Positions 4,097 through 44,269 of a DNA stretch of 64,000 nt are shown here, piece after piece. The DNA comes from a bacterium 1XD42-54 (lineage in GTDB: Bacteria; Bacillota; Clostridia; Lachnospirales; Lachnospiraceae). The notes under the pieces are model-generated. The model was not told where the DNA came from and ran no database searches. It was given only the letters and a program-made list of their open reading frames with translations. The stretch covers positions 164,968 through 228,967 of the forward strand of contig RAZH01000003.1 of assembly GCA_003612585.1 (NCBI GenBank). The letters are read 5' to 3'. The first letter of the stretch is position 1; the number at the start of each line of letters is the position of its first letter. The translations under genes and the position numbers were made by a program.

Positions 4097-4475
4097 AGCA
4101 GGACGATAAGCCGGGTTATGTCGTGAATGGTCATCTATCCAGACCTGCCGTTGCCGGCAGGTTCCAGCAACCTACCTGAAGCTGACGGGCCGCCATATGC
4201 TTCGTTTCGGTCTTGCTTCGGATGGGGTTTACATATGCCCCTCCCGTTACCGGGAGGGCGGTAGTCTCTTACACTGCCCTTCCACCCTTACCGGAGCCGC
4301 TTGCATGTTCCGTAAAACAGAATCCACAGCACTGCACCGGCGGTTCATTTCTGTTGCACTATCCTTAGAGTCGCCTCCACCGGACGTTATCCGGCATCCC
4401 TGCCCTGTGAAGCCCGGACTTTCCTCGTCTGGCACCTTTCGGCCTGCCAGCCGCGACCATTTATCCTACTTACAG
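4097..4475 (-). ncRNA. rnpB: RNase P RNA (bacterial)
   Basis: Minus strand contains GAGGAAAGTCCGGGCTTCACAGGGCAG, GGAGGCGACTCTAAGGATAGTGCAACAGAAA and 3' ACATAACCCGGCTTATCG, hallmark conserved regions of RNase P RNA. Confidence 0.95.
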
Positions 4476-4537
4476 TGGCATTCTACCACATCTTTTTTTA
4501 CTTTGCAAACTTTTCTATCGTGAAATATGTCACTCTT

Positions 4538-4909
4538 TTATCTCTGTATGCATGCAACAGCTGCTTCCCACTCTTTCTCTTTAAAACCTACCAGTACACA
4601 ATCCTGCGTAACCAGAATCGGGCGTTTCACTAACATCCCGTCCGTAGCCAGCAAATCCAGTTTTTCATCATCCGTCATGGACGGGAGGCGGTCCTTCAAC
4701 TTCATTTCTTTATACAAAATCCCGCTCGTATTAAAAAAACGTTTCAGTTCCAGACCACTTTTTTCATACCAGGCAGCAAGCTCCTCCTTGGATGGATTTT
4801 CCTGTTTGATATCCCTCAAATCATATGGTACCTTCTGTTCCTTCAACCAGTTTTCTGCTTTTTTACAGGTGCTACATTTCGGATAACATACAAATAAATT
4901 CATTTTCAC
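4538..4909 (-). CDS. ArsC/Spx-family protein
   Basis: CYPKCSTCKKAENWLKEQKVPYDLRDIKQENPSKEEL; ...RPILVTQDCVLVGFKE. Confidence 0.85.
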   Translation of the reverse strand: MKMNLFVCYPKCSTCKKAENWLKEQKVPYDLRDIKQENPSKEELAAWYEKSGLELKRFFNTSGILYKEMKLKDRLPSMTDDEKLDLLATDGMLVKRPILVTQDCVLVGFKEKEWEAAVACIQR

Positions 4910-26142: not shown

Positions 26143-27375
26143 ATGAAAGAAAAAGTAATTCTGGCTTATTCCGGCGGTCTGGACACAACAGCGCTGATTC
26201 CGTGGCTGAAGGAGACCTTTGATTATGAAGTAATCTGCTGCTGCATCAACTGTGGGCAGGGTAATGAACTGGAAGGCCTCGATGAACGCGCAAAGCTTTC
26301 CGGCGCTTCCAAATTATATATTGAAGATATTGTAGACGAATTCTGTGATGACTTTATCATGCCATGCGTAAAGGCCGGCGCTGTTTATGAGCATAAATAT
26401 CTGCTCGGCACCTCCATGGCGCGTCCAGTTATCGCAAAGCGCCTTGTGGAAATCGCCCGCAAGGAAGGCGCTACCACCATCTGCCACGGCGCAACAGGAA
26501 AAGGAAACGATCAGATCCGTTTTGAACTTGGCATCAAGGCTCTGGCCCCGGATCTCAAAATTATCGCACCATGGCGTATGACCGATGTCTGGACCATGCA
26601 GTCCCGTGAGGATGAGATTGAATTCTGTAAACAGCACGGCATCAACCTCCCGTTCGACGCCAGCCAGAGCTACAGCCGCGACCGTAATCTGTGGCACATC
26701 AGCCATGAAGGCCTGGAGCTTGAAGATCCGGCGAACGAGCCGAACTATGACCACATGCTCGTGCTCAGCGTCACCCCGGAAAAAGCCCCGGATCAGGGTG
26801 AATACATCACCATGACGTTCGAAGCAGGTGTTCCGAAGACGTTAAACGGCAAAGAGATGAAAGTTTCTGAAATTATCTCTGAGCTGAATGTGCTTGGTGG
26901 AAAACACGGCATCGGTATTGTTGATATCGTCGAAAACCGCGTAGTGGGCATGAAATCCCGCGGCGTTTATGAAACGCCGGGCGGAACCATCCTCATGGAA
27001 GCACACGACCAGCTCGAGGAGCTGATCCTTGACCGCGAAACACTTGAGACAAAGAAAAAACTGGGCAGCCAGTTCGCCCAGGTCGTATACGAAGGAAAAT
27101 GGTTCACCCCGCTGCGCGAAGCAATTCAGGCATTCGTGGAATCCACGCAGCAATACGTGACCGGAGAAGTAAAATTCAAGCTGTACAAAGGCAATATCAT
27201 CAAAGCCGGAACGACTTCTCCATACAGCCTCTACAATGAGTCTCTCGCTTCTTTCACAACCGGAGATCTCTACGACCACCACGACGCAAGCGGATTCATC
27301 ACACTGTTCGGCCTTCCGCTGAAGGTTCGGGCCATGAAGCTTGCTGAGGCAAAGACACAGAAGGCAGATAAATAA
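26143..27375 (+). CDS. argG: Argininosuccinate synthase
   Basis: VILAYSGGLDTTALIPWLKE, GATGKGNDQIRFELG, FDASQSYSRDRNLWHISHEG. Confidence 0.97.
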   Translation: MKEKVILAYSGGLDTTALIPWLKETFDYEVICCCINCGQGNELEGLDERAKLSGASKLYIEDIVDEFCDDFIMPCVKAGAVYEHKYLLGTSMARPVIAKRLVEIARKEGATTICHGATGKGNDQIRFELGIKALAPDLKIIAPWRMTDVWTMQSREDEIEFCKQHGINLPFDASQSYSRDRNLWHISHEGLELEDPANEPNYDHMLVLSVTPEKAPDQGEYITMTFEAGVPKTLNGKEMKVSEIISELNVLGGKHGIGIVDIVENRVVGMKSRGVYETPGGTILMEAHDQLEELILDRETLETKKKLGSQFAQVVYEGKWFTPLREAIQAFVESTQQYVTGEVKFKLYKGNIIKAGTTSPYSLYNESLASFTTGDLYDHHDASGFITLFGLPLKVRAMKLAEAKTQKADK

Positions 27376-27746
27376 TAAAAGGCATGATTCACGGACTTTC
27401 TATTTTCATTACCATGAATCAAACGCCAAATCAGGCAGGGGATATCCCTGCCTGATTTTATATTTTTCTGATTTGTTACAATCACTTTATCTCCCTGGAT
27501 TACATAAAAGACAGAATAGTTATCTACCAACAGCCGTCTCATCTCTTTGTTCTGTTCCGGCTCCGATTCCACAATATGGATTCTCTCATCCAATGTATCC
27601 AATGTTAATATAGCATCTGCAATCCGGTTGTATTGATTTATTGCGTTTTCCGGTGACTGAAGGACATAAGCAATGTGATTATATAGTTGATCCATATCAG
27701 TCAACGCTTCATTTGTAATCTCAACCGTATATCGCTTCATAATCAA
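27270..27746 (-). CDS. RelE/ParE-family toxin with abnormal C-terminal read-through
   Basis: KRYTVEITNEALTDMDQLYNHIAYVLQSPENAINQYNRIADAI...YSVFYVIQGDKVIVTN; ORF continues through the argG terminator and into the argG 3' end. Confidence 0.75.
   Translation of the reverse strand: MIMKRYTVEITNEALTDMDQLYNHIAYVLQSPENAINQYNRIADAILTLDTLDERIHIVESEPEQNKEMRRLLVDNYSVFYVIQGDKVIVTNQKNIKSGRDIPCLIWRLIHGNENRKSVNHAFYYLSAFCVFASASFMARTFSGRPNSVMNPLASWWS
27428..27464 (+). terminator. Rho-independent terminator after argG
   Basis: AAATCAGGCAGGG-gatat-CCCTGCCTGATTT followed by tatattttt. Confidence 0.85.
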
Positions 27747-28027
27747 TGATTCTCCCTGAATTTTGCAAATGCCTCTGCTGCATTCTGTACTCTTCCTGCC
27801 GCTATATCATTGTATCCCTTTTCCAGTTTCTGATGGATTTCTTCTGTTGTCATAGCATCTGCATAAATGGATGCCGGCGCTTTTGGTAAAGAAACAGAAA
27901 ATGGAATTCCACCAGTAAGAGAAATCTGGTTTAAATACATATCAATGGCCGTTGACATGGGGACACCTAACTGAGATAATACTTTTTCTGCCCGTTCTTT
28001 GACCGTTGGATTTACTCTTAAATTCAA
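27743..28027 (-). CDS. RelB/DinJ-family antitoxin (5' end possibly frameshifted)
   Basis: NLRVNPTVKERAEKVLSQLGVPMSTAIDMYLNQISLTGGIPFSVSLP is a classic DinJ N-terminus; overlaps the toxin start by 4 nt. Confidence 0.85.
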   Translation of the reverse strand: MNLRVNPTVKERAEKVLSQLGVPMSTAIDMYLNQISLTGGIPFSVSLPKAPASIYADAMTTEEIHQKLEKGYNDIAAGRVQNAAEAFAKFRENH

Positions 28028-28206: not shown

Positions 28207-29511
28207 TCAGTTTATCATTGTCAGAATCTCTCTTGGATTCACCCGCATAATCCTCACACACGATAAAACTGTCACAATCACGCAGAAAATCATGCCCCCC
28301 GCTCCTGCTGTAATGACGCTTCCTGCCCGTAAGCCTGCACCCGGAAGTTCCAACACCTCTGCAAGGATGCGGACTCCCCCGTACACAAACGGAACGCAGA
28401 GAATCAGACTGCATAAATAAACAAGAAGATTTTCCGCCATCAGTCTGCCCACTATCTGTCTCTTTGAAAAGCCCAGTGAAAGAAGGATTCCGATTTCTCC
28501 CGTACGTTCCTGATTCCACATGGTCAGGACAATGACCAGTATAATTAGCCCAAGGAGAAGAACTGCAATCAGCATAGCAGAAAGAATACGGTTCATCTGC
28601 GTAAGAGGCGCTGCGCTGCGGTCATAATCCGCGCTGTTCGTGTTGATGAAGTAACTGTCCCAGTGATAGCCCGGAATGGATATCACGTTCTCAAGGCTGG
28701 CATCCAGAAGCGCCGGATCCTCCAGCTGCAAAATAAGTCCGTTCGTATACTGCCGCTCAGTCTGCCAGACCTCCTCTGCCACCTGCATTCCGCTTGCTTC
28801 ATCTACATAGATGTAGTTGGAAAGAATCTCCGGCTCCGCCCTTTGCGGGGAAGCATTATCTGCCTCAGGCGCAACGGTAAAAATTCCCACGATCTCAAAG
28901 CGATATGTATTTCCCACACCTGCGCGCGCCCTCATGACGATTTCATCCGTCACGGTTCCGGTTATGGTATCTCCTATCTTCAGGCCGTTCGCCTCTGCCA
29001 GATACTCAGAAATCACCGCTTTTTCCGTATCTCCGCTCTCTATCGCACGGCCCTTCGCCAGTTCCAGCTTTCCATCCGTAAACTCCCTGGCAAGGGCGCT
29101 TTCTGTGCACGCAACCATTCTTGCCGTCCGGGCGGCTTCCGTTCCTTCTGCTGTAAATTTCCCGGGGCATAAAAAGAGCTCCTTCATGGAGAGGTAAAAC
29201 GTATTGATTCCGGTCCATTTCTCAGGCTCCACTACCTGCACGACACTCCCTGCAAGCTCCGGCGTCACAACGTTCTCCTCATCAAACGTACACTCCACGG
29301 TCACGCAGGCAAAAAACTGCCTGCGCAGCTCTGTAAGTGAATCCTGTACTGCTGCTGTCAGCGTAATCCCCGAAAGCACAAGCACCAAAAGAAGAAAGAA
29401 AATTGCAGTAAGAACAGCGGTTCTGGATTTTTTTCTTTTCAAATACAGGACTGCATGCCCCAGAACCAATTTTTTATGATCTGTTTTATGAGTTTTATGA
29501 TCTGTTTTCAT
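28207..29511 (-). CDS. FtsX-like ABC transporter permease
   Basis: N-terminal TM plus MacB-like periplasmic region, C-term WNQERTGEIGILLSLGFSKRQIVGRLMAENLLVY; start at MKTDHKTHK overlaps upstream ATPase stop. Confidence 0.88.
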   Translation of the reverse strand: MKTDHKTHKTDHKKLVLGHAVLYLKRKKSRTAVLTAIFFLLLVLVLSGITLTAAVQDSLTELRRQFFACVTVECTFDEENVVTPELAGSVVQVVEPEKWTGINTFYLSMKELFLCPGKFTAEGTEAARTARMVACTESALAREFTDGKLELAKGRAIESGDTEKAVISEYLAEANGLKIGDTITGTVTDEIVMRARAGVGNTYRFEIVGIFTVAPEADNASPQRAEPEILSNYIYVDEASGMQVAEEVWQTERQYTNGLILQLEDPALLDASLENVISIPGYHWDSYFINTNSADYDRSAAPLTQMNRILSAMLIAVLLLGLIILVIVLTMWNQERTGEIGILLSLGFSKRQIVGRLMAENLLVYLCSLILCVPFVYGGVRILAEVLELPGAGLRAGSVITAGAGGMIFCVIVTVLSCVRIMRVNPREILTMIN

Positions 29512-30142
29512 CAGCCGCTTCCTTTGCCACAAAATGTTTGTCCTGAAACTCGCAGAGCACATCCGCCTCCTGCGCAAGGGCAGAGGAATGCGTTACCATA
29601 ATCACACACCGCCCCTCCTCATGGGCGCTTTTTTTCAAAAGCGCAAGAATGTCCTTTGCCGTATCCTCGTCAAGGTTTCCCGTCGGTTCATCAGCCAGAA
29701 GAATGGGCTTATTGCTGGCAATTCCCCTCGCAATAGCCACTCTTTGCTGCTGGCCGCCGGAAAGCTTTAAAACATTTCTGTCCCACAGTTCTTTTGAAAG
29801 CCCTACCTTTTCCAAAGCTTCCTCCACCGGAAGCTTTGCGGTGAGCGCCACATTTTCCTTAACTGTCATATATTCAATCAGATTATACCCCTGGAAAATG
29901 AAGGCCGCATGGTCCTGCCTGTGCCGGTCAAGGCCATATTCCCGGATATCTGTCCCGTTATAAAGGATTTTTCCTTTTCTGGGACTATCGAGCCCTCCGA
30001 GCAAAGAAAGCATCGTCGTTTTTCCGCATCCCGACTTTCCCAGAATCGCATACAGCTTTCCTTGTTCAAAATCAAGATTTACGTCCTCCAAAACGGTATT
30101 ATAATCCGTGTAAGAATACATCATATCAACAATCTGCAGCAT
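29495..30142 (-). CDS. ABC transporter ATP-binding protein (LolD/MacB-like)
   Basis: ILGKSGCGKTTMLSLLGGL, LSGGQQQRVAIARGI, ILLADEPTGNLDEDT. Confidence 0.93.
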   Translation of the reverse strand: MLQIVDMMYSYTDYNTVLEDVNLDFEQGKLYAILGKSGCGKTTMLSLLGGLDSPRKGKILYNGTDIREYGLDRHRQDHAAFIFQGYNLIEYMTVKENVALTAKLPVEEALEKVGLSKELWDRNVLKLSGGQQQRVAIARGIASNKPILLADEPTGNLDEDTAKDILALLKKSAHEEGRCVIMVTHSSALAQEADVLCEFQDKHFVAKEAADENRS

Positions 30143-31835
30143 TTTCCCGCCTCCTGTTCTGCTTTTTCCTTTTACTGCTTTTCTCTCTTATCGCTTTTCT
30201 TTCTTCTATCTTTCCATTTCTTATTTCGTATATTTTATCGCAGTTTTCCACGTATTTCAATTGATGGGTAATCAGAATTACCAGTTTGTCTCCCAGCAGT
30301 TCCAAACCCTCTGTGAAAAACCATTCCTCTGATTCATGATCAAAATTTGACGTACATTCATCAAAAATCAGCACAGGCGCCAGATGAAGCATTGCCCGTA
30401 GAAAGGCAAGCTTCTGTTTTTCTCCGCCGGACACGTTTGTCCCGCTCACACCGATCACAGTATCAAGCCCCTGCGGAAAATGTGCCAGCAGCTCTTCCAT
30501 TCCGGTCTCGCGAAATACGGCCTTCAGCTCCTCGTCTGTGTATCTGCCCTCATAATCCAGATTCTCCCGGACTGTCTCCTGAAAAAGATAAGGAAACTGA
30601 GACACCACAGAAAACAAAGCTCGGTACTCCTCAAGGTTAATCGCTCTGCTGTTTTTTCCATTTACCAGAACTTCGCCGCTGTCAGGCTCGTAAAAGCGAA
30701 GCAAAAGCTGAATCAGTGTGCTTTTTCCGCTTCCATTGTCTCCCACAACCGCAACCCGCTGTCCGCGGCGCAGCTGCATGGACGCATTTCTGATAACCGG
30801 CTTTTTTCCATATCCAAAACAAACCCTCTGTAATTCCAGGGTACGAAATTCCTGTTCCAGCTTACTGCCCCAAATCTGCTCTGTATCAAGATTCCAGAAT
30901 TCGTTCAGTCTTTTAAAAGAAGGGCGTATCTGCGCAACAATCATTTTTATATTCATCAGCATCGAAATCGGTCCTGTCACATTTCCGCTGTAAGAAATAA
31001 ATGCCAGTACACTTCCCATACTCATAGAACCGTTACAGACAAAATATCCGCCCAGAAGATAATAAATTCCCGTCATAATCCCCTGTATTCCAGCCTCCGC
31101 AGAAGAATGAAAAATATCCAGCATATTTATTTTCTGCTGCCCGCACAAAAGCTTTTCTTTCCGGCATGAAAACTGTTTTTCCTCTTTCTGATACCGGTTC
31201 TGAAGCTTTATTTCACGTATCCCGCTGATCCGGTCCGATATCCACGCATGAAAGCTCTGGTTCTCCTGAATATAGTTTTGAAACTGCTCCTCCTTCTTTT
31301 TACTCAAAATATGTAAAAATACAAATTTCACAGGAACACATACCAAAATACAAAGCGCCATTTTCCAGTTAATAAAAAACAGCCCAATCAGTCCGCTGAC
31401 GATACGGAGCGAATACGTAAACAGATACAGAACACCTTTATCAAGAAGTACGCCCGCACTTTCAATATCCGTATTTAACTGATGAATCAGCTCCGTACTG
31501 TTTTGTTTTGTAAACTGGCCTATTTTCAGACGAAGCACCTTTTGAAACGCCTGGACATGCAGCGTATGGAGCACATCATTGCGTACCCTTAAAAGCAACC
31601 AGTCCTGAAGCGCTTCCAGCCCCTGGACTGCCAGAATCAAAATAATCAACAGGCACGCATAGCCTACAACCCGTCCATATTCTCTTTGAAGCAGCCCTTC
31701 ATCCGTCAGCTTCTGCAAAATAAGCGGATGAAAAAAGCTTTCTGCCATACACAGAAGACAGGCGCCCGCGATCAGGACAAGGGCCGCCGTATGTTTCTTC
31801 ATGATCTGTAAAATCTGTATTATTACACTCTTCAT
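30126..31835 (-). CDS. ABC exporter (fused TMD-NBD), no C39 peptidase domain
   Basis: TM half followed by VAVVGDNGSGKSTLIQLLLRFY, VSGGEKQKLAFLRAMLHLAPVLIFDECTSNFD. Confidence 0.9.
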   Translation of the reverse strand: MKSVIIQILQIMKKHTAALVLIAGACLLCMAESFFHPLILQKLTDEGLLQREYGRVVGYACLLIILILAVQGLEALQDWLLLRVRNDVLHTLHVQAFQKVLRLKIGQFTKQNSTELIHQLNTDIESAGVLLDKGVLYLFTYSLRIVSGLIGLFFINWKMALCILVCVPVKFVFLHILSKKKEEQFQNYIQENQSFHAWISDRISGIREIKLQNRYQKEEKQFSCRKEKLLCGQQKINMLDIFHSSAEAGIQGIMTGIYYLLGGYFVCNGSMSMGSVLAFISYSGNVTGPISMLMNIKMIVAQIRPSFKRLNEFWNLDTEQIWGSKLEQEFRTLELQRVCFGYGKKPVIRNASMQLRRGQRVAVVGDNGSGKSTLIQLLLRFYEPDSGEVLVNGKNSRAINLEEYRALFSVVSQFPYLFQETVRENLDYEGRYTDEELKAVFRETGMEELLAHFPQGLDTVIGVSGTNVSGGEKQKLAFLRAMLHLAPVLIFDECTSNFDHESEEWFFTEGLELLGDKLVILITHQLKYVENCDKIYEIRNGKIEERKAIREKSSKRKKQNRRRENAADC

Positions 31836-32923
31836 AAATCTTCTCCGCCCAGCATCCGGATCAATGTCCTGCAGATATCCGTTTCCACTGCGGAAGATGC
31901 ACGCAGCGTGCAGGCCAGTCTTCCTTCTGCATAAAAATCTATTTTTTCCCTTCTGCAGTAAACTTCTGCATCGTAAAAAAAGTGTTCTTTTTCCATTTCC
32001 TCCTTCTCATAGACAGAGAGCAGCAACGAAACATCAAGATAGCGGTCCATTTTGTTCAGCAATTCTTCGCGTGAACCACTATAATGGTTTCTCCCAAATA
32101 TCTGAAATCCTTTTCCAAAATCCTCTTCCACGAGAGCGGCGGCCTCAAGGCTGAATTTTTCTGCGAATATGCGGACTAGCTTTTCTGTTTCAAAAATCTC
32201 TTCCCGGTTCACAACAGCAACCATCGGGCTTTCAAGAGGTTTGCCCCAGCCTTTTCTTGCAAAGTCCGCAAAAGAAAGCTCAGACTCAGGCGCCCATTCG
32301 TCTGCCTGTCCGTTTTCCTTTTTCCTGAGCCGCCGGATCAGATTTCCGGCTGCCACAGGCACCGCGTAACTATTTCCTTTCCAAATACCCTTTTTATTAG
32401 GTCCGACTTCCGTGTTTGCCACGTATATTTTCTGTAAAATCTCGTGATACACAGCCCTGCATTCTCCTGGTTTCAGCAAATGATTCCAGTCCATTGCCGT
32501 GCAGATTACATTCGGATAGGCGCCCGGAAGCGTCATCTTTCCGTCATTGCTCAGAGACGCCACGACAGTGATTTCTTTTTCCTGTATCTGCTCCATGACC
32601 GGATCCAAGATTTCTGCATCGGAAAGCCGCACCGTTCCAAGACTCAGGCAGATCAGATCCGCCTCCTCTTCTATACAGCATTCCAGTGCTTTCCGCAAAT
32701 CTCTGACAGATAACGGCGACTCCCAGCTTTTTGCGATACGTACATCGAGAATATCATACCCGTCCGCACATTGTTCCAGAAGTCTCGCACAGTCTGTTCC
32801 ATGCCCGCCTGTCGGCATTTCAGACCCGCCGGTTTTCGCATCCGGAAAAATTATCTTTTGAACCCTCTGTGGGTGCAGAAGCGCCCGTCTGTCAATCCCT
32901 TCGTCTACGATAGCCACTCTCAT
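31832..32923 (-). CDS. Subtilisin-like (S8) serine peptidase, no signal peptide
   Basis: VAIVDEGID (Asp), GGHGTDCARLL (His), VVASLSNDG (Asn), GNSYAVPVAAG (Ser) in correct order. Confidence 0.82.
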   Translation of the reverse strand: MRVAIVDEGIDRRALLHPQRVQKIIFPDAKTGGSEMPTGGHGTDCARLLEQCADGYDILDVRIAKSWESPLSVRDLRKALECCIEEEADLICLSLGTVRLSDAEILDPVMEQIQEKEITVVASLSNDGKMTLPGAYPNVICTAMDWNHLLKPGECRAVYHEILQKIYVANTEVGPNKKGIWKGNSYAVPVAAGNLIRRLRKKENGQADEWAPESELSFADFARKGWGKPLESPMVAVVNREEIFETEKLVRIFAEKFSLEAAALVEEDFGKGFQIFGRNHYSGSREELLNKMDRYLDVSLLLSVYEKEEMEKEHFFYDAEVYCRREKIDFYAEGRLACTLRASSAVETDICRTLIRMLGGEDL

Positions 32924-32941: not shown

Positions 32942-34450
32942 CTATTCTATCATAGACAGTACTCTGATTGGTTCCAGCTTCAGCGTTTTCTTTATCGCTT
33001 CGTTAACACTATAATAAACGATCAGAAGCATCATAGCAAATACAAGTAAAGCAGTCTTCACCTCCACCCTGGTTGTCAGCTCCTTCGGCGGTTCTACTCC
33101 TGTCCTCTGATTTCTCGACATCTCCGCCACCTTGCTGTTTTCTCCACGAGCAATCGCCGCTTCTATTTCTTTTTCTGTATAAACCTTCTGCTCTCCTCCC
33201 TTGTTTACTGCTCCATATATTTGGTTTCCAATCCCTGGCGTGACTGCCAGGCTCACGATAAGAGCAAAGAAAAATGCGGTAAGTCCAAGCGCCAGATGCT
33301 CCCCTAAAAACTGCTTTCTGATCTCTTTTCCCGTGATTCCAAGAGACATCAGAATACCAGCCTCCCGCTTGCGCCTTTTCATCGAATGCAGGATTACCAG
33401 CATCAGAAGCAAAACGCCCGATGTCACTATAACTACAAGACAGACCGCCATAATTATTTTTAGTGTCCGCAAAGGCTTTACTGCCTGACTGTACAGACCA
33501 TCATCCTTCACGAGTTCATAATACTTCCAGTCTATCCAGTCAAGTTGTCTTACCTGCTCCATGACCTCGTCAAGTTCTGCCGGATTTTCCACAAAAAACT
33601 GGCTTGCACTCAGATAATATGGACGCCCAATTATCTCATCCAGCGCACGCCCGGCTTCATTGTCTGTAATCACCCAGTTTTCCAGAATGTCTATTTCTTC
33701 TGTATATTGAGTGACCGTCTGCTGGTAAGTCAATTCAAAAAATCCTACAATCTCCGTCTCTACTGACCCCAGTGATTCAATCGGATATTTCGCACGTACG
33801 TTCAAAGAATGAAGGTCAATTTTCAGCGTATCGCCCAGTTTTAAATGATTTCTTTTGGCAAAGTTTTCTGAAATAATGCATTTAAATGCATCGTCCGGCG
33901 TAATATGGCGGCCTTGGGTGAGCCGGAATGCACCGTTATAAAACTGGTCAAAATGACAGCTGTTCCTGGTATGATAAGTATACGTTATATACATCATATT
34001 TTTAGTCTCTTCTGGATCATAGGGCAAATGATGCTCATGCGTTGTAAAATAATTGTAACTCCATGCGTGATAGCCCGGAACCAGCTCATACTCATACAGC
34101 ATCACATCAGCTCTGCTCCCTGCCTCATAATCTGTAATCCCTTCCACTTCTTCTGTGATTCTGCGCACCATCGCTTCATCCACATTTGGACCAATATAAG
34201 TCCGTACAGGACTATCCATCCCTTCAATCGCACGGTCTTCCCACTGGTTCATATCATTTTTATCGGGCGTAAGTCCAATGCTGAAGCTTGTGCCGTACGT
34301 CCTTTCAATTGCTGAGATCGTATCCCTGGATGTATTGTAAATTGATACAGATACCAGCATAAAAAAAAGAAGAAAAAACAGTATTCCCAGTAAAAACATA
34401 TTGCTCTTTTTCCGGAATAACGATAATAATATTCGTTTTTTTTCTTTCAT
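32942..34450 (-). CDS. FtsX-like ABC transporter permease
   Basis: N-terminal TM, large extracytoplasmic domain, SMKRRKREAGILMSLGITGKEIRKQFLGEHLALGLTAFFFALIVSLAVTPGIG. Confidence 0.88.
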   Translation of the reverse strand: MKEKKRILLSLFRKKSNMFLLGILFFLLFFMLVSVSIYNTSRDTISAIERTYGTSFSIGLTPDKNDMNQWEDRAIEGMDSPVRTYIGPNVDEAMVRRITEEVEGITDYEAGSRADVMLYEYELVPGYHAWSYNYFTTHEHHLPYDPEETKNMMYITYTYHTRNSCHFDQFYNGAFRLTQGRHITPDDAFKCIISENFAKRNHLKLGDTLKIDLHSLNVRAKYPIESLGSVETEIVGFFELTYQQTVTQYTEEIDILENWVITDNEAGRALDEIIGRPYYLSASQFFVENPAELDEVMEQVRQLDWIDWKYYELVKDDGLYSQAVKPLRTLKIIMAVCLVVIVTSGVLLLMLVILHSMKRRKREAGILMSLGITGKEIRKQFLGEHLALGLTAFFFALIVSLAVTPGIGNQIYGAVNKGGEQKVYTEKEIEAAIARGENSKVAEMSRNQRTGVEPPKELTTRVEVKTALLVFAMMLLIVYYSVNEAIKKTLKLEPIRVLSMIE

Positions 34451-34511
34451 AATTTATTGAAAAATACAACAGCGGCGACTTTTATTTATTCTTTACTGTA
34501 AATTTACATCA

Positions 34512-34694
34512 TCACTCGTAATTTGATACCTTAACATTTTTTCTTGAATCATTTACCAACTTCAAATATGCAGTATAATTCTCCGTATGTGCATCCCAAC
34601 ACGCACAGCTCACGCCCTCACACGGACACCAGCAAACAGACATTGCTAAAACACTATTACTTTTTCTTTCGTAGTTCTTTTTCAGTTTTCTCAT
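34512..34694 (-). CDS. Cys-rich putative RiPP precursor peptide
   Basis: MRKLKKNYERKSNSVLAMSVCWCPCEGVSCACWDAHTENYTAYLKLVNDSRKNVKVSNYE; RBS GGAGGTAACAGG-ATG; directly in the radical SAM operon. Confidence 0.8.
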   Translation of the reverse strand: MRKLKKNYERKSNSVLAMSVCWCPCEGVSCACWDAHTENYTAYLKLVNDSRKNVKVSNYE

Positions 34695-34756
34695 CCTGTT
34701 ACCTCCAATCGCAATAATATTTCTTTGCCCTGTTACACGCCGCCGCTATTGTACTT

Positions 34757-35026
34757 TTACCCCTCCTCTCTGATTTTTTCTGCGATACCCTTGACTGTAA
34801 AAAATTCAAAGGTTTCTATTGCAATCATTTCTGCCAAATTAACCTGGAATCTTCTTTCGATCTCCTGTATCACATATAACCAGTCTACCACAGGAATTCC
34901 CAACGTATCATCCAAAAGATTGAGTTCTCTGTCATTTACATGAATCCCTGTATAGTTTTCTACAATGCTCTGCACTGTTTCTTCAATTTCCTCTATATTT
35001 ATCCTATTTTTATCTTCCATATTCAC
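34757..35026 (-). CDS. Acyl-carrier-protein-related protein of a peptide maturation system
   Basis: NRINIEEIEETVQSIVENYTGIHV...IPVVDWLYVIQEIERRFQVNLAEMIAIETFEFFTVKGIAEKI has ACP-like helical pattern; 11 nt from the radical SAM gene. Confidence 0.78.
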   Translation of the reverse strand: MNMEDKNRINIEEIEETVQSIVENYTGIHVNDRELNLLDDTLGIPVVDWLYVIQEIERRFQVNLAEMIAIETFEFFTVKGIAEKIREEG

Positions 35027-35037
35027 GCCTCTTTCTT

Positions 35038-37203
35038 TTAAACGACCTCTGTATTTTCTTCTAATCTTTCCAAAAGCTTATCCATTTCCTTTTCAAAATC
35101 CTGGCTGTCCTCCCAAAGACAGACCAGTTGCGCCTGCTTCTCTGTATTTTTCAGGACAACGGAATCTTCATCAAAACACAGATAATCCGCTTTCCTTGTC
35201 TCCGGATCCAGTTTCATGTAATGCGGGCTGACACAGAAAAAATCCACCGGGAACTGATATTTGCCCATACAGCTTTCTTTCATATAGGCAAGATATGCAT
35301 CCCTTCGCTCTGCATCCATTTTGCACACGTTATAATACAGGTTGAAAATCGCAGCATCCACATCCAAAGCACGGGAAACTACTGCCAAAAGTTCTCCAAA
35401 ATGAAAATGCTCCTTTTCGCTTACCGGGAACATTCCCCCCGGAATCTCCACTACTACAATATCCGGATTTTCTCTGTCGCAAAGCTCTTTCACATACTTA
35501 TTTAGATTCAGAACTTTCTTTTCAAAGCCTTCTGCTTGGTCCAGGAAAAAGTCCGGAAGCTTCCTGTTACCTGCATTGCATACCGCCGGGTCAACGCCAA
35601 TGCCCAAGACCTGATATCCCTTTGTCCGGATAAATTCGCAGGCTCTGGCAAATGTCGCCGCTTTTGAACACTGTTCCCCCTGGCCAAGCACCACAAGAAC
35701 GGGAATCTCTAATTTTTCCATGCCATAATGCGGAAGTTCTTCTGCCTGAAATGGCTGTTCAGGCTCCGGCACAGCCCTCTTCTCTTCTTTCCTGTCCTTG
35801 TTTTCCTTCTGGCACTCATTAATCACACAATATTCATACAATTCATTGACAAATGTCTGTCTGCTCTTTTGACAGATTTCTAATTTTTTCTCTGCCGTTA
35901 CAAAGCTCTCTTTGTCCCCGCCTTCAATTCTCGCAACACATATTTCACAATTCTGCAGGGCAGGGCAGTTGATGCACTGTTTTTCCGTTAAACGCCCAAG
36001 GTTCAAAATCGGCTCCATTTTAGGAATACACAGTCCCTCATCCACATTTCCAATCGAAAAAGCGGATTCATTTTCTACTACCTTTTCACATGGATAAAAT
36101 GTCCCGTCAACAGACACAAAAATTTTTCGCATTCCCGGTATGCACGGCCCTCCATGATGTACAGACTTTCTCATATACCTTCCTTTTTTGAGTCCATCGA
36201 AAAATTTCTGTTTCATTACACAGGTAGTTCTGAACATCTGGTCTACCTGTTTCTCTTCCAGCATGCCTGCAAGGTACATCAAGGCTTTGAGATACATGTA
36301 TTTTCTGTTTAACCGGAAAGCGTTTTGATAATGAACCCATTCCTGATTTTTCAGATTTGTCTCTTCTACTTCATGATACTGTACCGCATGCTTCGGAATC
36401 AGCTCTGTGTGATCAAAAAATTCTGTTATCTTTTTCAAATCCACTTTGGGATTTAAGGTAATCATAAAGCCGAGATTTTTCCAGAATTCATAATCCTGCT
36501 CTTTTATAACAGCAATATTTTTCATAATCGTATCAAAAGAGCCTTTTCCTGTCCGGAATTTTCTGTTTTGGTCATGCTCTTCTTTCGGGCCGTCCAGACT
36601 TATATGAACAGTAAACTGATTTTCCGAAAGGAATTTCACCACCGACGGAGTCAGAAGCGTCCCGTTTGTTGTCATTGTAAAGGTATATTTTCTTTCACCC
36701 ATGCACTTTTTTATGTAAGAAACGCATTCCCGTATCAGTCCGATTTCCAGAAGAGGTTCCCCGCCATAAAAGGAAAAACACATCTCCCCGATCTCGCTGG
36801 AATGGCTAATAGCATAATCAATCGCCTTTTTGGCTGTCTCAAAAGTCATTTTCTTATCACAGTGTTCTCTTGTGAAATAGTTTCCGGAATATGCGCAGTA
36901 TGCACACCGGAGGTTACACTGCTGAGTCACCTGCAAAACAACCTGCCGTACCCTGCACTTTGCATAATGCTCCAGAAAATCTGTATCCGGGTGGCGGATC
37001 TCCTCCACAACATTCTCCTCCAGGATTCCCATATCACAAAATCTCTGCAACGCAGGGCAATGCTCCTGATCTGTTTTCCCCTGCTCATAAGCACGAAACT
37101 CTTCGAAGCTCTCTCTGTCAACAGGAATGACAGTATGTGTATTCCTGTCATAAATATAAGTTCCTCCGCATGTTTCTATTGTTTTTATAATGACCTTTTT
37201 CAT
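35038..37203 (-). CDS. Radical SAM/SPASM peptide maturase fused to a second C-terminal peptide-maturation domain
   Basis: CNLRCAYC; FYGGEPLLE; SPASM-like Cys cluster CxxCPALQNCEIC; C-terminal about 240 aa starts PVLVVLGQGEQCSKAATFARACEFIRTKGYQVLGIGVDP; RBS GGAGGAGG before MKKVIIKTIETCGG. Confidence 0.88.
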   Translation of the reverse strand: MKKVIIKTIETCGGTYIYDRNTHTVIPVDRESFEEFRAYEQGKTDQEHCPALQRFCDMGILEENVVEEIRHPDTDFLEHYAKCRVRQVVLQVTQQCNLRCAYCAYSGNYFTREHCDKKMTFETAKKAIDYAISHSSEIGEMCFSFYGGEPLLEIGLIRECVSYIKKCMGERKYTFTMTTNGTLLTPSVVKFLSENQFTVHISLDGPKEEHDQNRKFRTGKGSFDTIMKNIAVIKEQDYEFWKNLGFMITLNPKVDLKKITEFFDHTELIPKHAVQYHEVEETNLKNQEWVHYQNAFRLNRKYMYLKALMYLAGMLEEKQVDQMFRTTCVMKQKFFDGLKKGRYMRKSVHHGGPCIPGMRKIFVSVDGTFYPCEKVVENESAFSIGNVDEGLCIPKMEPILNLGRLTEKQCINCPALQNCEICVARIEGGDKESFVTAEKKLEICQKSRQTFVNELYEYCVINECQKENKDRKEEKRAVPEPEQPFQAEELPHYGMEKLEIPVLVVLGQGEQCSKAATFARACEFIRTKGYQVLGIGVDPAVCNAGNRKLPDFFLDQAEGFEKKVLNLNKYVKELCDRENPDIVVVEIPGGMFPVSEKEHFHFGELLAVVSRALDVDAAIFNLYYNVCKMDAERRDAYLAYMKESCMGKYQFPVDFFCVSPHYMKLDPETRKADYLCFDEDSVVLKNTEKQAQLVCLWEDSQDFEKEMDKLLERLEENTEVV

Positions 37204-37651: not shown

Positions 37652-38065
37652 ATGGACGGGTTACAGCTAAAGTTATGTGATATTCAAGGCAGACTGTTTG
37701 AGTTATCTGCCGAAAAGAAGTATGACAGTGCCGCTTTTGTGAAGGCATTTATGACATCCGACACCGCAAAGGCGCTTGACTCCGATTATAACCGGATGCA
37801 GTGGGCAGGTGAAGAATATCTGCTTGAGGAAATTGTGTCTGCCGCAAGCAGTTCATTAATCTCAGGCGGAGAAATATACTCCACTGATATTCTGTACTGG
37901 ATTGGCTACCTCTACCGCTATTGGCATTATTACAGCGGAGAAGACAGCGCAAAAATATATAAACAGGCCCCCGTTGAAACAATGAAACGCAACTATATGA
38001 TATTTCACACAATGGATCCTGTTCTGGCTATCGAGGATTTAAAAGAGATTCATAATCAAACATGA
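37652..38065 (+). CDS. Small protein encoded directly upstream of Fic (candidate antitoxin/partner)
   Basis: 137-aa ORF, 15 nt from the Fic ORF; no family recognised with confidence. Confidence 0.6.
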   Translation: MDGLQLKLCDIQGRLFELSAEKKYDSAAFVKAFMTSDTAKALDSDYNRMQWAGEEYLLEEIVSAASSSLISGGEIYSTDILYWIGYLYRYWHYYSGEDSAKIYKQAPVETMKRNYMIFHTMDPVLAIEDLKEIHNQT

Positions 38066-38080
38066 GGATGGAGGTGCGAT

Positions 38081-38689
38081 ATGGCACTTGAAAATAAATT
38101 GGGGCTGACCAGTTCTGCCGATCTTGCCCGTGAGGAAGAACGGATCAGCAAGAAAAAGGCTGCGGAACTTTTTGAAAAAGGAATTCTTGATAAATTAGAA
38201 GCTGGAAAGTTTTCTGCGCTCAAGGCTATTCATAAATATCTATTCGACGAAATTTACGACTTTGCCGGAAAAATCAGAACAGTAAACATTGCAAAAGGCA
38301 GTTTCCGTTTTGCCCCGGTGGTGTACTTGGAAGCGGCACTTGAAAACATTGATAAGATGCCGCAATCAACTTTTGATGAGATTGTAGAAAAGTATGTTGA
38401 AATGAATATCGCCCACCCATTTCGGGAAGGTAACGGACGCAGCGCCCGTATTTGGCTGGATCTGATTTTCAAAACCGAGCTTCACAGGGTCGTTGACTGG
38501 AGCAAGGTAGATAAAGAAGATTATCTTCTTGCTATGGAGCGTAGCCCGATTAAGGATATTGAAATCAAACACCTGCTGAAAAACGCCCTGACGGATGACA
38601 TCAATAGCCGTGAAATCTATATGAAGGGCATCGACCATAGCTACTACTATGAGGGTTATACATCCTTTAAGACAGAGGAAACGCTTTAA
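38081..38689 (+). CDS. Fic-domain protein
   Basis: HPFREGNGRSARIW matches the Fic HPFx[DE]GNGR signature; FDEIYDFAGKIRTVNIAKG. Confidence 0.93.
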   Translation: MALENKLGLTSSADLAREEERISKKKAAELFEKGILDKLEAGKFSALKAIHKYLFDEIYDFAGKIRTVNIAKGSFRFAPVVYLEAALENIDKMPQSTFDEIVEKYVEMNIAHPFREGNGRSARIWLDLIFKTELHRVVDWSKVDKEDYLLAMERSPIKDIEIKHLLKNALTDDINSREIYMKGIDHSYYYEGYTSFKTEETL

Positions 38690-39336
38690 TCAGCGTTTCC
38701 TAAAGGACAAAGCCGCCCTTCCTCCAGCTCATACACACGGTCACACAGGACTTCGATATCCTCCCTGTTATGGCTCGCCAGCAAAATCACCTTTCCCTTT
38801 TCTTTCATTTTCAAAAAAAGAGTCCGCATCTGGGCAACTCCCGCCTTATCCAGACCGTTCATCGGCTCGTCCAGTATCAGAATTGGCGGATCCTCCATGA
38901 TCGCCTGGGCGATCGCAAGCCTCTGCTTCATTCCAAGCGAATAAGTCCCTACATGTTTTCTGGAAGAAGGCTCAAGGCCTACTGTTTCCATCACCGACCG
39001 AAGATATATGCGGTTCATCTTATTACGGATTCCATATAAAAATTCGAGATTTTTCAGTCCACTTTTATTTCTCAAAAATGCCGGTTCTTCTATGATAATT
39101 CCAATTTTTCCACTGATATCATCCACCCTGGCATCATCGCAGGAGATTTCGATTGTACCTGAATCCGGCTGCAAAAAGCCACAGATACACTTGAACAATA
39201 CACTTTTTCCACATCCGTTATACCCAACAAATCCTACAATTTCCCCCGATTTACAGGTAAATGTCACATCCTGTAATACTTTATTATCCCGAAAAGACTT
39301 TTGCAGATTTTCTACTCTGATTGAAACTTCTTTCAT
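38686..39336 (-). CDS. ABC transporter ATP-binding protein
   Basis: GFVGYNGCGKSVLFKCICG, YSLGMKQRLAIAQAI, ILILDEPMNGLD; start at MKEVSIRVENLQKSF. Confidence 0.9.
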   Translation of the reverse strand: MKEVSIRVENLQKSFRDNKVLQDVTFTCKSGEIVGFVGYNGCGKSVLFKCICGFLQPDSGTIEISCDDARVDDISGKIGIIIEEPAFLRNKSGLKNLEFLYGIRNKMNRIYLRSVMETVGLEPSSRKHVGTYSLGMKQRLAIAQAIMEDPPILILDEPMNGLDKAGVAQMRTLFLKMKEKGKVILLASHNREDIEVLCDRVYELEEGRLCPLGNAD

Positions 39337-40205
39337 TCCGTTTCTCCATTCCATTTGAACTGATTTCGATGTACTCCCAATGATGCGATTCCAATGGCTG
39401 CAACAATATAGGCCAAACTCAGGCCAAAAACTACCGTAACAGGCGGCATAGCTGCATAGATATAATTTTTTGTAAAAAACAGCCCGGTCTGCAGCCAGGA
39501 CACCGGCGAGATCATATGCAACCAATAAAAATTATGTATGCCGAATGCCTGTGAACTAAATGGCAGAACAGCCAGAAATCCGACACACGTCAGAGCTACT
39601 GTCCTTCCAAAACAAAGACCAATCCCAAAAAGCAGGAAACCAAGCAATGTAAACACCAAACTATCCAGCCCAAATGCAAGAAGCGCTGCCTGCCATCCGT
39701 CTATCTGCTGAAGAAACGAATAGCTCAGGCCAAATGTTACATCGAACTCCTGCGCTGCATTTGTGAGGGACAGCGTATGGAGCATTTTGCCCCAGGAAAC
39801 CGTCCAGTCAATACGCGGAAGCTGATGCAGCAGTCCCATCAAAAACAAAGAGAGCGTAAAACTAAAACTACTTACCAGGATACTTCCCCGCTGTGCTGCC
39901 GCCCAGCGTCTTTTGCCCACCCGAATCATCTGATACATTCCGTTCCGGTTCAGGTAAGGCGCTCCGGAAAAAAGATAGACTGCTCCCAATCCTACGGCCG
40001 CACACATAAAATCATTTGTCATAACGCTTAAGATAAACCATGGAGAAGCCGGGTAATCAAGTCCCTTTACTGCACGTGCAAGACCCATATAATCTAAGTC
40101 CATTGCCCCAAACAGTAAAATCAATAAAATCCCGGTTCTCATCTGAAAAAAACGATGACGATAGAGCTGAAATGTATACTGAAGCTGTCGCCAGAACTTA
40201 CCCAT
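39333..40205 (-). CDS. ABC-type membrane protein (permease)
   Basis: Multi-TM protein between ATPase and a second membrane ORF; start at MGKFWRQLQ. Confidence 0.65.
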   Translation of the reverse strand: MGKFWRQLQYTFQLYRHRFFQMRTGILLILLFGAMDLDYMGLARAVKGLDYPASPWFILSVMTNDFMCAAVGLGAVYLFSGAPYLNRNGMYQMIRVGKRRWAAAQRGSILVSSFSFTLSLFLMGLLHQLPRIDWTVSWGKMLHTLSLTNAAQEFDVTFGLSYSFLQQIDGWQAALLAFGLDSLVFTLLGFLLFGIGLCFGRTVALTCVGFLAVLPFSSQAFGIHNFYWLHMISPVSWLQTGLFFTKNYIYAAMPPVTVVFGLSLAYIVAAIGIASLGVHRNQFKWNGETE

Positions 40206-40980
40206 TCCGTACCCTCCTTTCCACGCTTTTGCAAATGGCGGTCCCAATCAGAACAGATAAAAAAACTCCCAAAAGGAAAATAGCAGCTACTGTCAGCTTA
40301 TCATTTCCGAGTGCATTATAGTTAATCAGGAAAAAATGATCCGGATCCATCAGATATTTTCCACTTCCAAACACAACACTGATTCTGCGGATCAGATGAT
40401 GTGCCATCACCGGAAATGCCAGGACAAGCAACCCATTGGTAGTATACAGGGAAACCAACGCTGCCAAAAGCGCCAAAACAACCGCCCATACACCCTGGCA
40501 TATACTGTGTATCCACAAATACATAAAATAATTTCCGTTTTCAAGCAGTCCGGTGAAACCTCCAAACACAGATAACATCTCCAGTTCTCCGACACCAGCC
40601 TCCCACGGATATCGGCAGCGCAGCAGAAAAATATAGAGCATACGGCCAAATACCATTGAAATCTCCGCCGACACGGCAATCCATATACATTTTGAAATCA
40701 CATAATTTATGGCTTTTCCCCTGGTCAGCGCATATTTTATGTAGCCCTGTTCCATATCCTCCGCAAAACATCGCCCATACGCCAAGGTAGTAAACAGATA
40801 CACCAGAACTGTTGCATTGCTTCCCCAAACCCGGTAAAAACTGCGCAGCACTGAAACCCTAACCTCTGAAAACTGCTCTGCTCCCAACAAATGCACTACA
40901 CATACCCCTATGATTGCTAAAAGCATCTGCCACGAGCCGAAACATCGGTACAGATCCGTTCTCCAATATCTCGTTTTCAT
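40198..40980 (-). CDS. ABC-2-like membrane protein (permease)
   Basis: Multi-TM; AYGRCFAEDMEQGYIKYALTRGKAINYVISKCIWI resembles ABC-2 permeases. Confidence 0.68.
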   Translation of the reverse strand: MKTRYWRTDLYRCFGSWQMLLAIIGVCVVHLLGAEQFSEVRVSVLRSFYRVWGSNATVLVYLFTTLAYGRCFAEDMEQGYIKYALTRGKAINYVISKCIWIAVSAEISMVFGRMLYIFLLRCRYPWEAGVGELEMLSVFGGFTGLLENGNYFMYLWIHSICQGVWAVVLALLAALVSLYTTNGLLVLAFPVMAHHLIRRISVVFGSGKYLMDPDHFFLINYNALGNDKLTVAAIFLLGVFLSVLIGTAICKSVERRVRNG

Positions 40981-42059
40981 GCAACAATCTCCTTTCCGGA
41001 AACTGCATCTACCAGCATTGTGATTGTATATTCCCCTTCATCTGATTTTTCTGTAACATGGAAAAGCCAGGCCGGAATCGTAAAATAATCCCTCTCCTTT
41101 TCTCCCTGAACCACCGTCTGATATAAAGTGGCATCCATCACAAGATAATCCACCTCGTTCAAAATCGCATTGTATTTATCCGCAACAGTTGCCGTAATCT
41201 GAGAAAAATCTTTCAATTGCAACGTCTCTTCTTCCGCTTTAAACCTAAAATAGTAATCAACCTGCAGGTCCTCCAAGCCTCTGCGTGACCAGAGCACACG
41301 GATCGGTGCATTCATATCATTATTATCCGGAAACACATATTTGTGATAAACCGGAAGCCCCTGCCACGTCTGATGCATTACATAATAATATGCATCATCC
41401 TCTCTAGTCCAGGATTCTTTGTAATACTCACTGGTAATATTCCCCGTATGATCCTCCCATACTTCCTTTTCTTCCATCAAAGTATGCGGCAAGGTAAAGC
41501 CTGAAACAAGACATCCTTCCGTCGTTATTCCGATTTTTTGCAAGGTTTCCCTTACTGCATCCAGAGCCTCATTTGCTGACATCCCGTCCAGATCTTCTTT
41601 CCCTACATATTCTTCCGGCAAATTATCACGATCATCATAGTGTATAGCCGCACGGTAATAGTATGCGTCTGGCGTATTATACACCACACTTCCGCCAGCT
41701 GATAAATTGTAAAAATCCTCTGTCAGCAAATGAAAATACCCCGGCTCTCCCTCACCACCTTTTTCTTCTACCTTCTCCTTTATCTTCTTTTCTTCCAAGC
41801 CATCCAGAAAAACAGCTTTTACTGTCTCTACATCCGGAAGCTGAAGCTGCACGCGGCCCGCCTTTAAATTTTCCAGCTGCACGCCGTCCGCTATCTCAAG
41901 CCCAGCATCAAATGTAACCTTTTCTATCGTATTTTCATAATGTTCCGGGAACTCACAAATTTCCTGTATAACATCTTCAGCTTGTCTTGGACGGCCTGTA
42001 CAGCCGCCCAGCAATAATACTGATCCTATAAGTAATAATTTCAAATATTTTCTAGTCAT
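40977..42059 (-). CDS. Lipoprotein of unknown function
   Basis: MTRKYLKLLLIGSVLLLGGCTG lipobox; overlaps the permease start. Confidence 0.75.
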   Translation of the reverse strand: MTRKYLKLLLIGSVLLLGGCTGRPRQAEDVIQEICEFPEHYENTIEKVTFDAGLEIADGVQLENLKAGRVQLQLPDVETVKAVFLDGLEEKKIKEKVEEKGGEGEPGYFHLLTEDFYNLSAGGSVVYNTPDAYYYRAAIHYDDRDNLPEEYVGKEDLDGMSANEALDAVRETLQKIGITTEGCLVSGFTLPHTLMEEKEVWEDHTGNITSEYYKESWTREDDAYYYVMHQTWQGLPVYHKYVFPDNNDMNAPIRVLWSRRGLEDLQVDYYFRFKAEEETLQLKDFSQITATVADKYNAILNEVDYLVMDATLYQTVVQGEKERDYFTIPAWLFHVTEKSDEGEYTITMLVDAVSGKEIVA

Positions 42060-42071
42060 ACTAGTCTCCGA

Positions 42072-42470
42072 TTATGGTGTATAAGCTCCTGTCAGCTGAA
42101 CTCTGGGACCATATCCATTCAAATATTCACCTTCCATATAATAAAGCTCGCCATGTGGTACTGTAGTGTTATACGCTGCTGATTGTGTAGCTCCAACAAT
42201 AATCATCGTCCCATAAGGAGTATAGTATTGATTCGGCTTATATAAATGTTTTGATTTTGCTATTATCAATGTACTCGAATCTGATGAACTATACCCAGTT
42301 ACATAAAAGTAATTGTCCTGGTCATATGGATTCTTCTCTGCCCTTTTTGAAATAGGATCGGGAGAGCTCCCTCCCATCGTAATATTAAACGATACAGTTT
42401 GGGCCATTACTGTCATTGACATGGTCAAAAGTCCAATAATTGTTAAAATAGCAAAAATTTTTTTCTTCAT
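42072..42470 (-). CDS. Small secreted protein, unknown function
   Basis: MKKKIFAILTIIGLLTMSMTVMAQ signal peptide; first gene of the transporter operon. Confidence 0.7.
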   Translation of the reverse strand: MKKKIFAILTIIGLLTMSMTVMAQTVSFNITMGGSSPDPISKRAEKNPYDQDNYFYVTGYSSSDSSTLIIAKSKHLYKPNQYYTPYGTMIIVGATQSAAYNTTVPHGELYYMEGEYLNGYGPRVQLTGAYTP

Positions 42471-42635
42471 GTTTTACCTCCCTCGCTCATTCGTCTTTTC
42501 TGTTAATTACTTCTTTTTCTAGCATATTTTACACCATTGGTTTCATTCTCCTTTCTTTTTAATAGTAATATTTTTTATTAGTTGCGAATATTCTAATAGT
42601 TTTTCTTGAATTTGTTAGCAGCTGATATTTTTTAT

Positions 42636-42664
42636 TGACACTTTTCCCTATTTATTATAAAATT
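42636..42664 (+). promoter_or_regulatory. Sigma-A-type promoter upstream of blaI-like gene
   Basis: TTGACA-17 nt-TAAAAT. Confidence 0.65.
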
Positions 42665-42694
42665 TAAGAAAAACTGATTGGAGGTGAACCTTTT

Positions 42695-43093
42695 GTGAAA
42701 AAGAAATTCGCACTGACTCCCAGCGAAGAGCGTGTCATGGAACTTTTGTGGCAGAAAAAACGTCCCATGACCAGTGTGGAATTAGCGGAGCATGCGGAAG
42801 AAGAGCAATGGAAAAGCAGTTATGTCTATATCCTGATCCGTTCTCTTTTGAAAAAAGGCATGATCGAAGTCTGTGGATCTGTCCAATATGCGTCTCAGTA
42901 TGCAAGACAGTTTCGCCCGCTTCTCACCAAAGAAGAATATGCTGCAAAGCTGGCTCTGTCCCTTAATCTGAATTCCAGCTCTGTCTCAAAGGTAGCTGTT
43001 GCACTGGCTGAGGGAGCTTCCGCAGATTCTGAACAGATCATTGCGCAGCTTGAAGATATGATTCAGCAGCTTCGCCAGAAAGCGGAGGAATAG
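42695..43093 (+). CDS. BlaI/MecI-family transcriptional repressor (GTG start)
   Basis: LTPSEERVMELLWQKKRPMTSVELAEHAEEEQWKSSYVYILIRSLLKKGMIEV. Confidence 0.88.
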   Translation: MKKKFALTPSEERVMELLWQKKRPMTSVELAEHAEEEQWKSSYVYILIRSLLKKGMIEVCGSVQYASQYARQFRPLLTKEEYAAKLALSLNLNSSSVSKVAVALAEGASADSEQIIAQLEDMIQQLRQKAEE

Positions 43094-43096
43094 CGT

Positions 43097-44269
43097 ATGG
43101 GATTTACATTCTGGTCATTCCTTGTTGCACTGGCATGGTGCAGTATATTTATTCTCGCTCTGACTCTGTTTCGAAAACACGTTACACTATCCGGGAAGCA
43201 TGGGGCCTTTGCTTTGATTTTGGTGTGCATACTGTGCATTTTACGCATGTTTCTCTCATATGATTTTTCTTTCAGTACGGGAATTCCTATTCGTGGTGTG
43301 TATGCTATATTTTCTGACTTTATGTTAAATACTACATCCACATTTGATTTCTTTGCAATTTCCCCCTGGGAAATGTTTTTAATCATATGGGGACTGGGCG
43401 CTGCCGCAATGCTGTTTCGCTTTTTTATACAGTACCACGCTTACACCAAAAGCCTTCGTCCATTATCTTCCTGCCAGTCAGAGCAGGTGCAAACAGTCTC
43501 CTCGTCGGTTTTACATGACTTCGGAATGAAAATAAATTGCAGTATTCTGTGCATTCCCGAGTTGCACATGCCGGGCGGAATCGGAGTTTTCCACAAAAAA
43601 ATCCTTTTGCCTGATTACAATTACTCAGATGAGGAGCTCTACTTCATACTGGCGCATGAATACTGTCACTTTCGAAACGGTGATCTGCTCCTGAAATATA
43701 TGATTCACATTTGCTGCTGTCTGCTGTGGTGGTTCCCGCCCATACGTCTGCTGCAAAAACAGATCATGCAGGCAACTGAGATCCGATGCGATATGACAGT
43801 TTCCGAACATTTATCCCGGCCATTCAGGATTCGGTATATGGATGTTCTAGTACAAAGTATGAAGCGTGCCAGTCAAAAAGATGGACACAGAACCGATTTG
43901 CCGTATATCATGACATTATCCGAGACTGCATCTAAAAGTACCATGGTCGAACGCTTTAAGATTCTGTCAAAAGCTCCAAAAACTAAAACAGGATCACGCA
44001 ATACGATCCTGTTCGCAATTATTATGTGTATCTTCTTTTTTGCTTCCTATCTGTACCTTCCGCTTCCATCGTATGAAACGCCTATGGAGGAAATCGAAGG
44101 GCATGGAGGCACATACATTGACCCGGAGCTGTCCTGGTTATACATAAAAGATGGAAACTATTACCTGGTAATCAACGGTTCAGATACCGTACAAGTTGAT
44201 GAAACTATAGGACTTCCTGTCTATATAGGAGCCGGTGTACCCATTAAGGAGGACTCTTATGAAAAATAG
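43097..44269 (+). CDS. BlaR1/MecR1-like M56 metallopeptidase membrane protein
   Basis: HExxH-like YFILAHEYCHFRNGDLLLKYMIHICCCLLWWFPPIRLLQKQIMQATEIRCD. Confidence 0.88.
   Translation: MGFTFWSFLVALAWCSIFILALTLFRKHVTLSGKHGAFALILVCILCILRMFLSYDFSFSTGIPIRGVYAIFSDFMLNTTSTFDFFAISPWEMFLIIWGLGAAAMLFRFFIQYHAYTKSLRPLSSCQSEQVQTVSSSVLHDFGMKINCSILCIPELHMPGGIGVFHKKILLPDYNYSDEELYFILAHEYCHFRNGDLLLKYMIHICCCLLWWFPPIRLLQKQIMQATEIRCDMTVSEHLSRPFRIRYMDVLVQSMKRASQKDGHRTDLPYIMTLSETASKSTMVERFKILSKAPKTKTGSRNTILFAIIMCIFFFASYLYLPLPSYETPMEEIEGHGGTYIDPELSWLYIKDGNYYLVINGSDTVQVDETIGLPVYIGAGVPIKEDSYEK

Follow-up and report, generated by a model that had tools for sequence, protein, structure and literature searches.

What is the domain that follows a radical SAM peptide maturase within one 721-aa protein, and what could it contribute there? 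The gene in question lies in the window, i.e., the whole stretch of 64,000 nucleotides that was analysed. The initial annotation, made from the letters only, described a radical SAM maturase joined to a second peptide-maturation domain, proposed the separately encoded TIGR04066-type protein as the source of that domain, and argued that the two would act together on the precursor.

Architecture of the fusion gene

The gene and its parts are located as follows.

35038..37203, reverse strand: fusion gene, CcpM radical SAM/SPASM maturase plus C-terminal half of TIGR04066 (721 aa)
35812..37188, reverse strand: CcpM radical SAM/SPASM domain, aa 6–464 (TIGR04068, 504 bits; Pfam Radical_SAM)
36895–36918, reverse strand: CNLRCAYC, aa 96–103, within the CcpM domain
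35938–36153, reverse strand: SPASM-like Cys region, aa ~351–422, within the CcpM domain
35710..35811, reverse strand: charged linker, aa 465–498 (its charged stretch taken from aa 463 on), between the CcpM domain and the second domain
35041..35709, reverse strand: C-terminal half of TIGR04066 with a DUF1611_C-like P-loop fold, aa 499–721 (~223 aa)
35656–35685, reverse strand: degenerate P-loop GQGEQCSKAA, in the second domain

Translation starts with the ATG at 37203, which has a strong ribosome site (GGAGGAGG). The TIGR04068 profile matched the protein with 504.3 bits over positions 2–459 of 462 (curated cut-off 500 bits). The first part thus scores above the cut-off over the whole model and carries both the CxxxCxxC motif and the SPASM-like cysteines, as a CcpM protein should. 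The CNLRCAYC motif, the Cys cluster, the distinct domain after a charged linker, and the degenerate P-loop-like turn had all been recognized by the initial annotation. A RiPP-recognition-like start had also been proposed; no Pfam RRE/PqqD match was found there, and TIGR04068 itself does span that region.

The C-terminal part was matched by TIGR04066 with 140 bits (E 9e-41, profile positions 94–361). This is under the full-length cut-off of 200 bits, as expected because the N-terminal part of the family is missing. Separate profiles of the two TIGR04066 halves located only the C-terminal half in the fusion (aa 499–721); the C-half profile included the window sequence, and the independent evidence is the TIGR04066 model itself. 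Judged by these matches, the second domain is a homolog of the C-terminal half of TIGR04066 and no full member of the family. The proposed TIGR04066 partnership was therefore right, with the addition that only one half of the partner is present.

The N-terminal ~140 residues of TIGR04066, a Rossmann-like half, were detected by the half-profile neither in the fusion nor in the window ORFs, and a genome-wide search with the N-terminal-half profile gave no match. The tail of the S8 protease encoded nearby (31832–32923) has roughly the right length and was considered as a new location of this half. This was rejected: the profile comparison gave a probability of about 0.1%, and in closely related clusters the same kind of short S8 tail accompanies a TIGR04066 that is complete and encoded on its own.

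Another species of this genus also encodes the 721-aa protein, with 98% identity; the fusion junction is therefore real and not an assembly error. Separate translation of the second domain from an internal ATG was also considered and dropped, since no ribosome site was found ahead of that codon.

Known CcpM proteins, such as SacD of the Paenibacillus SacP23 cluster and that of the Roseburia cluster, share the whole first domain with its CxxxCxxC and SPASM-like cysteines, but they are ~460–550 aa long and end before the second domain, whereas the window protein continues into the TIGR04066 half. The C-terminal ~220 residues of TIGR04066 proteins (e.g., SacE) are those matched by this half. In both of these clusters, CcpM and TIGR04066 are separate genes (PMC10731318, PMC4573289), and normally TIGR04066 is the next gene after ccpM.

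Frequency and origin of the fusion

At E ≤ 1e-100, 61 distinct CcpM loci were collected: 21 from the family sample, 11 new ones from the order, 28 new ones from the class (one of them a fragment), and one more from the genus. CcpM was free-standing in 58 of the 61 loci and fused in three. The survey of fused and split forms called for earlier thus showed that the fusion is far from universal, and neither of the two papers found on such clusters, which report separate genes, gives a precedent for a CcpM–TIGR04066 fusion. The three fused loci represent two independent events, and the window-type event is present in two species of one genus. In the 45 further genomes sampled from this genus, nothing CcpM-like was matched apart from generic radical SAM proteins. 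A scan of the whole collection with the fused domain returned a single close relative (L035, which carries the same fused protein), because such a scan reaches close relatives only.

The third fusion (L064) comes from a 61%-complete genome that belongs to the same order but to another family. Here, a complete TIGR04066 is joined to CcpM through an 18-base tandem repeat; the array (4436–4553 of that locus, 6.7 copies) is in frame and forms the linker. In the free-standing loci that could be read, TIGR04066 directly follows CcpM, and the two genes often share 4 bases; in L045, the one exception, it lies 1.6 kb away. Every CcpM genome had a TIGR04066 match in the family sample (15/15) and in the class sample (14/14). 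Co-occurrence, adjacency, and two independent fusions support the earlier suggestion that maturase and partner probably act together on the precursor.

Separate trees were made for the CcpM and TIGR04066 portions. In both, the window fusion stood beside L042 and L049, and L064 beside L067; each fusion therefore descends from a neighbouring pair of its own. The congruent trees support an origin in which the window fusion would have arisen in place from an overlapping ccpM–TIGR04066 pair, with loss of the N-terminal half of the partner. The retained C-terminal half would then carry the function needed together with CcpM, and the lost half would be dispensable or replaced by CcpM.

Over the whole gene, the two fused genomes differ by 40 synonymous and 13 non-synonymous changes, and the frame is open throughout. 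For this one genome pair, the CcpM part had a dN/dS of about 0.05 and the fused half one of about 0.10 (15 synonymous and 6 non-synonymous changes), the latter value indicating purifying selection on the fused half.

A DUF1611/DgcN-like fold in TIGR04066

The AlphaFold model of the fused domain had a pLDDT of 85.6. Its closest structural neighbours were 2g0t (Z 16.7, rmsd 3.5, 176 aligned residues), the DUF1611 protein 2obn (Z 16.1, rmsd 3.4, 187 aligned), and the D-glutamate N-acetyltransferase DgcN, 7xrj (Z 14.6, rmsd 3.6, 184 aligned). Other P-loop proteins followed from Z 13.8 down, a clear margin for 2g0t and 2obn and a small one for DgcN. The model of a complete standalone TIGR04066 (pLDDT 92.5) gave Z scores of 24.5, 24.1, and 20.4 against 2g0t, 2obn, and 7xrj over ~303 of 369 residues, with the next neighbour at Z 14.7, and Foldseek with this model agreed on the DUF1611-type neighbours. 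For the fused domain, Foldseek ranked SRP GTPases first; this assignment was set aside in favour of DUF1611, which came first with the second aligner and also when the full-length model was used.

Sequence profiles agree in part. The window protein had no match to Pfam PF07755, and two of 37 standalone TIGR04066 proteins matched it at E < 0.01. TIGR04066 modules that are fused to S8 proteases reached 46 bits against Pfam DUF1611_C (cut-off 25), and a profile built from these fusions matched 2g0t at 3e-10. From the Z scores and these S8-linked matches, we conclude that TIGR04066 is, on modelled structure and profile evidence, a diverged DUF1611/DgcN fold. Standalone TIGR04066 shares the two-domain fold of DUF1611/DgcN (PF17396 plus PF07755; 2g0t, 2obn, 7xrj), and the window fusion shares the C-terminal P-loop domain. 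We regard it as nearly certain that the second domain is the C-terminal half of TIGR04066 with this fold; the unrelated fold that would have spoken against the earlier reading was not observed.

The likeness seen is one of fold; the sequence motifs have degenerated and identity is 8–13%. The 2g0t motifs GTD..VGK.TT, TGQTG, and EGQGS..HP are largely replaced in TIGR04066 and in the fusion. Of 59 members, 50 retain the P-loop Lys and nine lack it; it has been lost in members of one family, including the L064 fusion. The residue after this Lys is Phe, not Ser/Thr, in 50/59, and the Gly ahead of it is replaced.

The module also occurs on proteases. S8 protease–TIGR04066 fusions of about 560–615 aa are found in other clusters (L050, L051, L052, L053, L054), and those of L050–L053 lie near maturases of the lachnocin type (825 bits) or of the TIGR04463/Clo7bot-like type. 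DUF1611 folds are thus associated with more radical SAM peptide systems than those of CcpM. In these proteins, the module is complete and sits on the protease, whereas in the window half a module sits on the maturase; most of them also have a better-preserved P-loop, GTSxxQGKFT. In CcpM clusters, a degenerate version of the module is present in the S8 tails that are long (hhalign probability 94%, E 1e-7). For the short S8 tail encoded in the window, homology to the module was not demonstrable by profile comparison.

The peptide cluster and the possible role of the module

The genes listed below are all downstream of the fusion gene and on the same strand.

34757..35026, reverse strand: acyl-carrier-related small protein, TIGR04069-like (25.6 bits), without the phosphopantetheine serine
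34512..34694, reverse strand: precursor peptide of 60 aa, TIGR04065/CLI_3235-like (20.2 bits), core MSVCWCPCEGVSCACW
32942..34450, reverse strand: FtsX/MacB-type permease, export or immunity (profile match)
31832..32923, reverse strand: S8 subtilase, QhpE-like, triad D7/H41/S185, ~160-aa tail, likely the leader protease
30126..31835, reverse strand: ABC exporter, MsbA-like (profile match)
29495..30142, reverse strand: ABC ATPase, lactococcin-972-exporter type (profile match)
28207..29577, reverse strand: second FtsX/MacB-type permease (profile match)

The 60-aa Cys-rich peptide scored under the TIGR04065 cut-off of 26 bits; its leader style and position are those of the precursors of other CcpM clusters. 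With known CcpM clusters, the window has in common a putative CLI_3235-type precursor, an ACP-related protein, an S8 protease, and an ABC exporter, and the neighbourhood of the fusion gene is probably a CLI_3235-type peptide cluster. An assignment as Clo7bot was rejected, as Clo7bot (TIGR04334) is a different maturase. The carrier serine was present in two of 51 ACP-like relatives, and since it is missing in the window protein, an acyl-carrier role of this small gene was rejected. Among the sampled clusters, the nearest relative (L049) is made up of these gene families too, with CcpM and TIGR04066 separate; its permease is one long gene, and the order of exporter and protease is swapped relative to the window.

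Some further observations were made in and around the cluster. Between the two fused species, the precursor genes (34512–34694 in the window, 14008–14187 in L069) are nearly identical in leader and Cys core; the tail after the core is hypervariable, and dN over the gene is 0.17. Synonymous divergence between the two species (window 32942–37203) is about 0.10 in the fusion and ACP-like genes and jumps to 0.59 in the permease next to them, as though a recent exchange had replaced the front part of the cluster. A RelB/DinJ antitoxin and ParE-type toxin pair (27270–28027) lies at the cluster end. At 37652–38689, an NmFic-type protein adenylyltransferase (316 bits) is encoded with a 137-aa ORF without family match ahead of it. 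The region 38686–44269 holds genes for ABC transporters, for a likely lipoprotein of 360 aa, and for a secreted protein of 132 aa that matched no family; it adjoins a BlaI/M56 (BlaR1-like) pair on the opposite strand and has the appearance of a second locus for peptide export or immunity.

The gene is best explained as a predicted two-part maturase for a Cys-rich CLI_3235-type peptide. By analogy with its family, the CcpM part would bind the precursor and perform the radical SAM chemistry. For the second module, we put at about even chances a role as a non-hydrolysing docking or hand-over piece holding CcpM, the precursor, and the S8 leader protease together. Its degenerate P-loop would at most bind a phosphate-bearing ligand or partner, NTP hydrolysis would have been lost or never acquired, and the fusion would fix the contact between CcpM and the module. 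The main counter-argument is that most members conserve the P-loop Lys, which a pure scaffold does not require; furthermore, the S8 tail in the window is not demonstrably homologous to the module, and the evidence of selection comes from one genome pair. Docking is favoured over catalysis by an NTPase or acyltransferase because the P-loop has degenerated and the carrier serine is missing from the ACP-like partner.

A DgcN-like acyltransferase that caps or acylates the peptide from acyl-CoA or a carrier-bound acyl group, with the fusion channelling the peptide, appears unlikely. The N-acetyltransferase DgcN (7xrj) is among the closest solved structures, the P-loop Lys is mostly kept, and an ACP-like gene is usually nearby, but the replaced DUF1611 motifs, the missing N-terminal half of the fused form, the rarity of the carrier serine, and the loss of the Lys in one family, the other fusion included, all speak against it. 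Still less probable is a working P-loop NTPase driving a conformational or activation step, like the SIMIBI NTPases in metal and cofactor maturation: the SIMIBI-type fold and the widely kept Lys would suit it, but Ser/Thr is lacking after the Lys, the preceding Gly is replaced (GQGEQCSKAA in the window), and nine members have no Lys at all. In the SacP23 paper, TIGR04066 is likened to a proton-ATPase subunit and suggested, without a supporting test, to give immunity (PMC10731318); neither the likeness nor the role is supported here. Protection of the producer, or regulation, is very improbable for a protein translationally coupled to and fused with the modifying enzyme in a cluster that has permeases of its own. 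The rarity of the architecture and the deleted N-terminal half could suggest an assembly artefact or a decaying pseudogene; with a 98% identical protein in two genomes, the excess of synonymous changes, and the open frame, we consider the chance of this negligible.

Tentatively, and with rather less confidence than in docking, the DUF1611/DgcN fold may serve radical SAM peptide pathways as a movable module, not recognised so far, that forms a physical bridge between the maturase and the leader protease. Such a module is found free, on the maturase (two events), on the protease, and in degenerate form in protease tails; the modified peptide would be passed on inside a single complex.

In the two samples, no CcpM genome is without TIGR04066, a protein that one paper called an immunity protein. 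A natural fusion that retains one half of it gives the fold of TIGR04066 and indicates which half is needed. The fusion is also a single polypeptide with maturase and partner at a fixed ratio, so that reconstituting this large family of gut and clostridial peptides in vitro should be easier to attempt.
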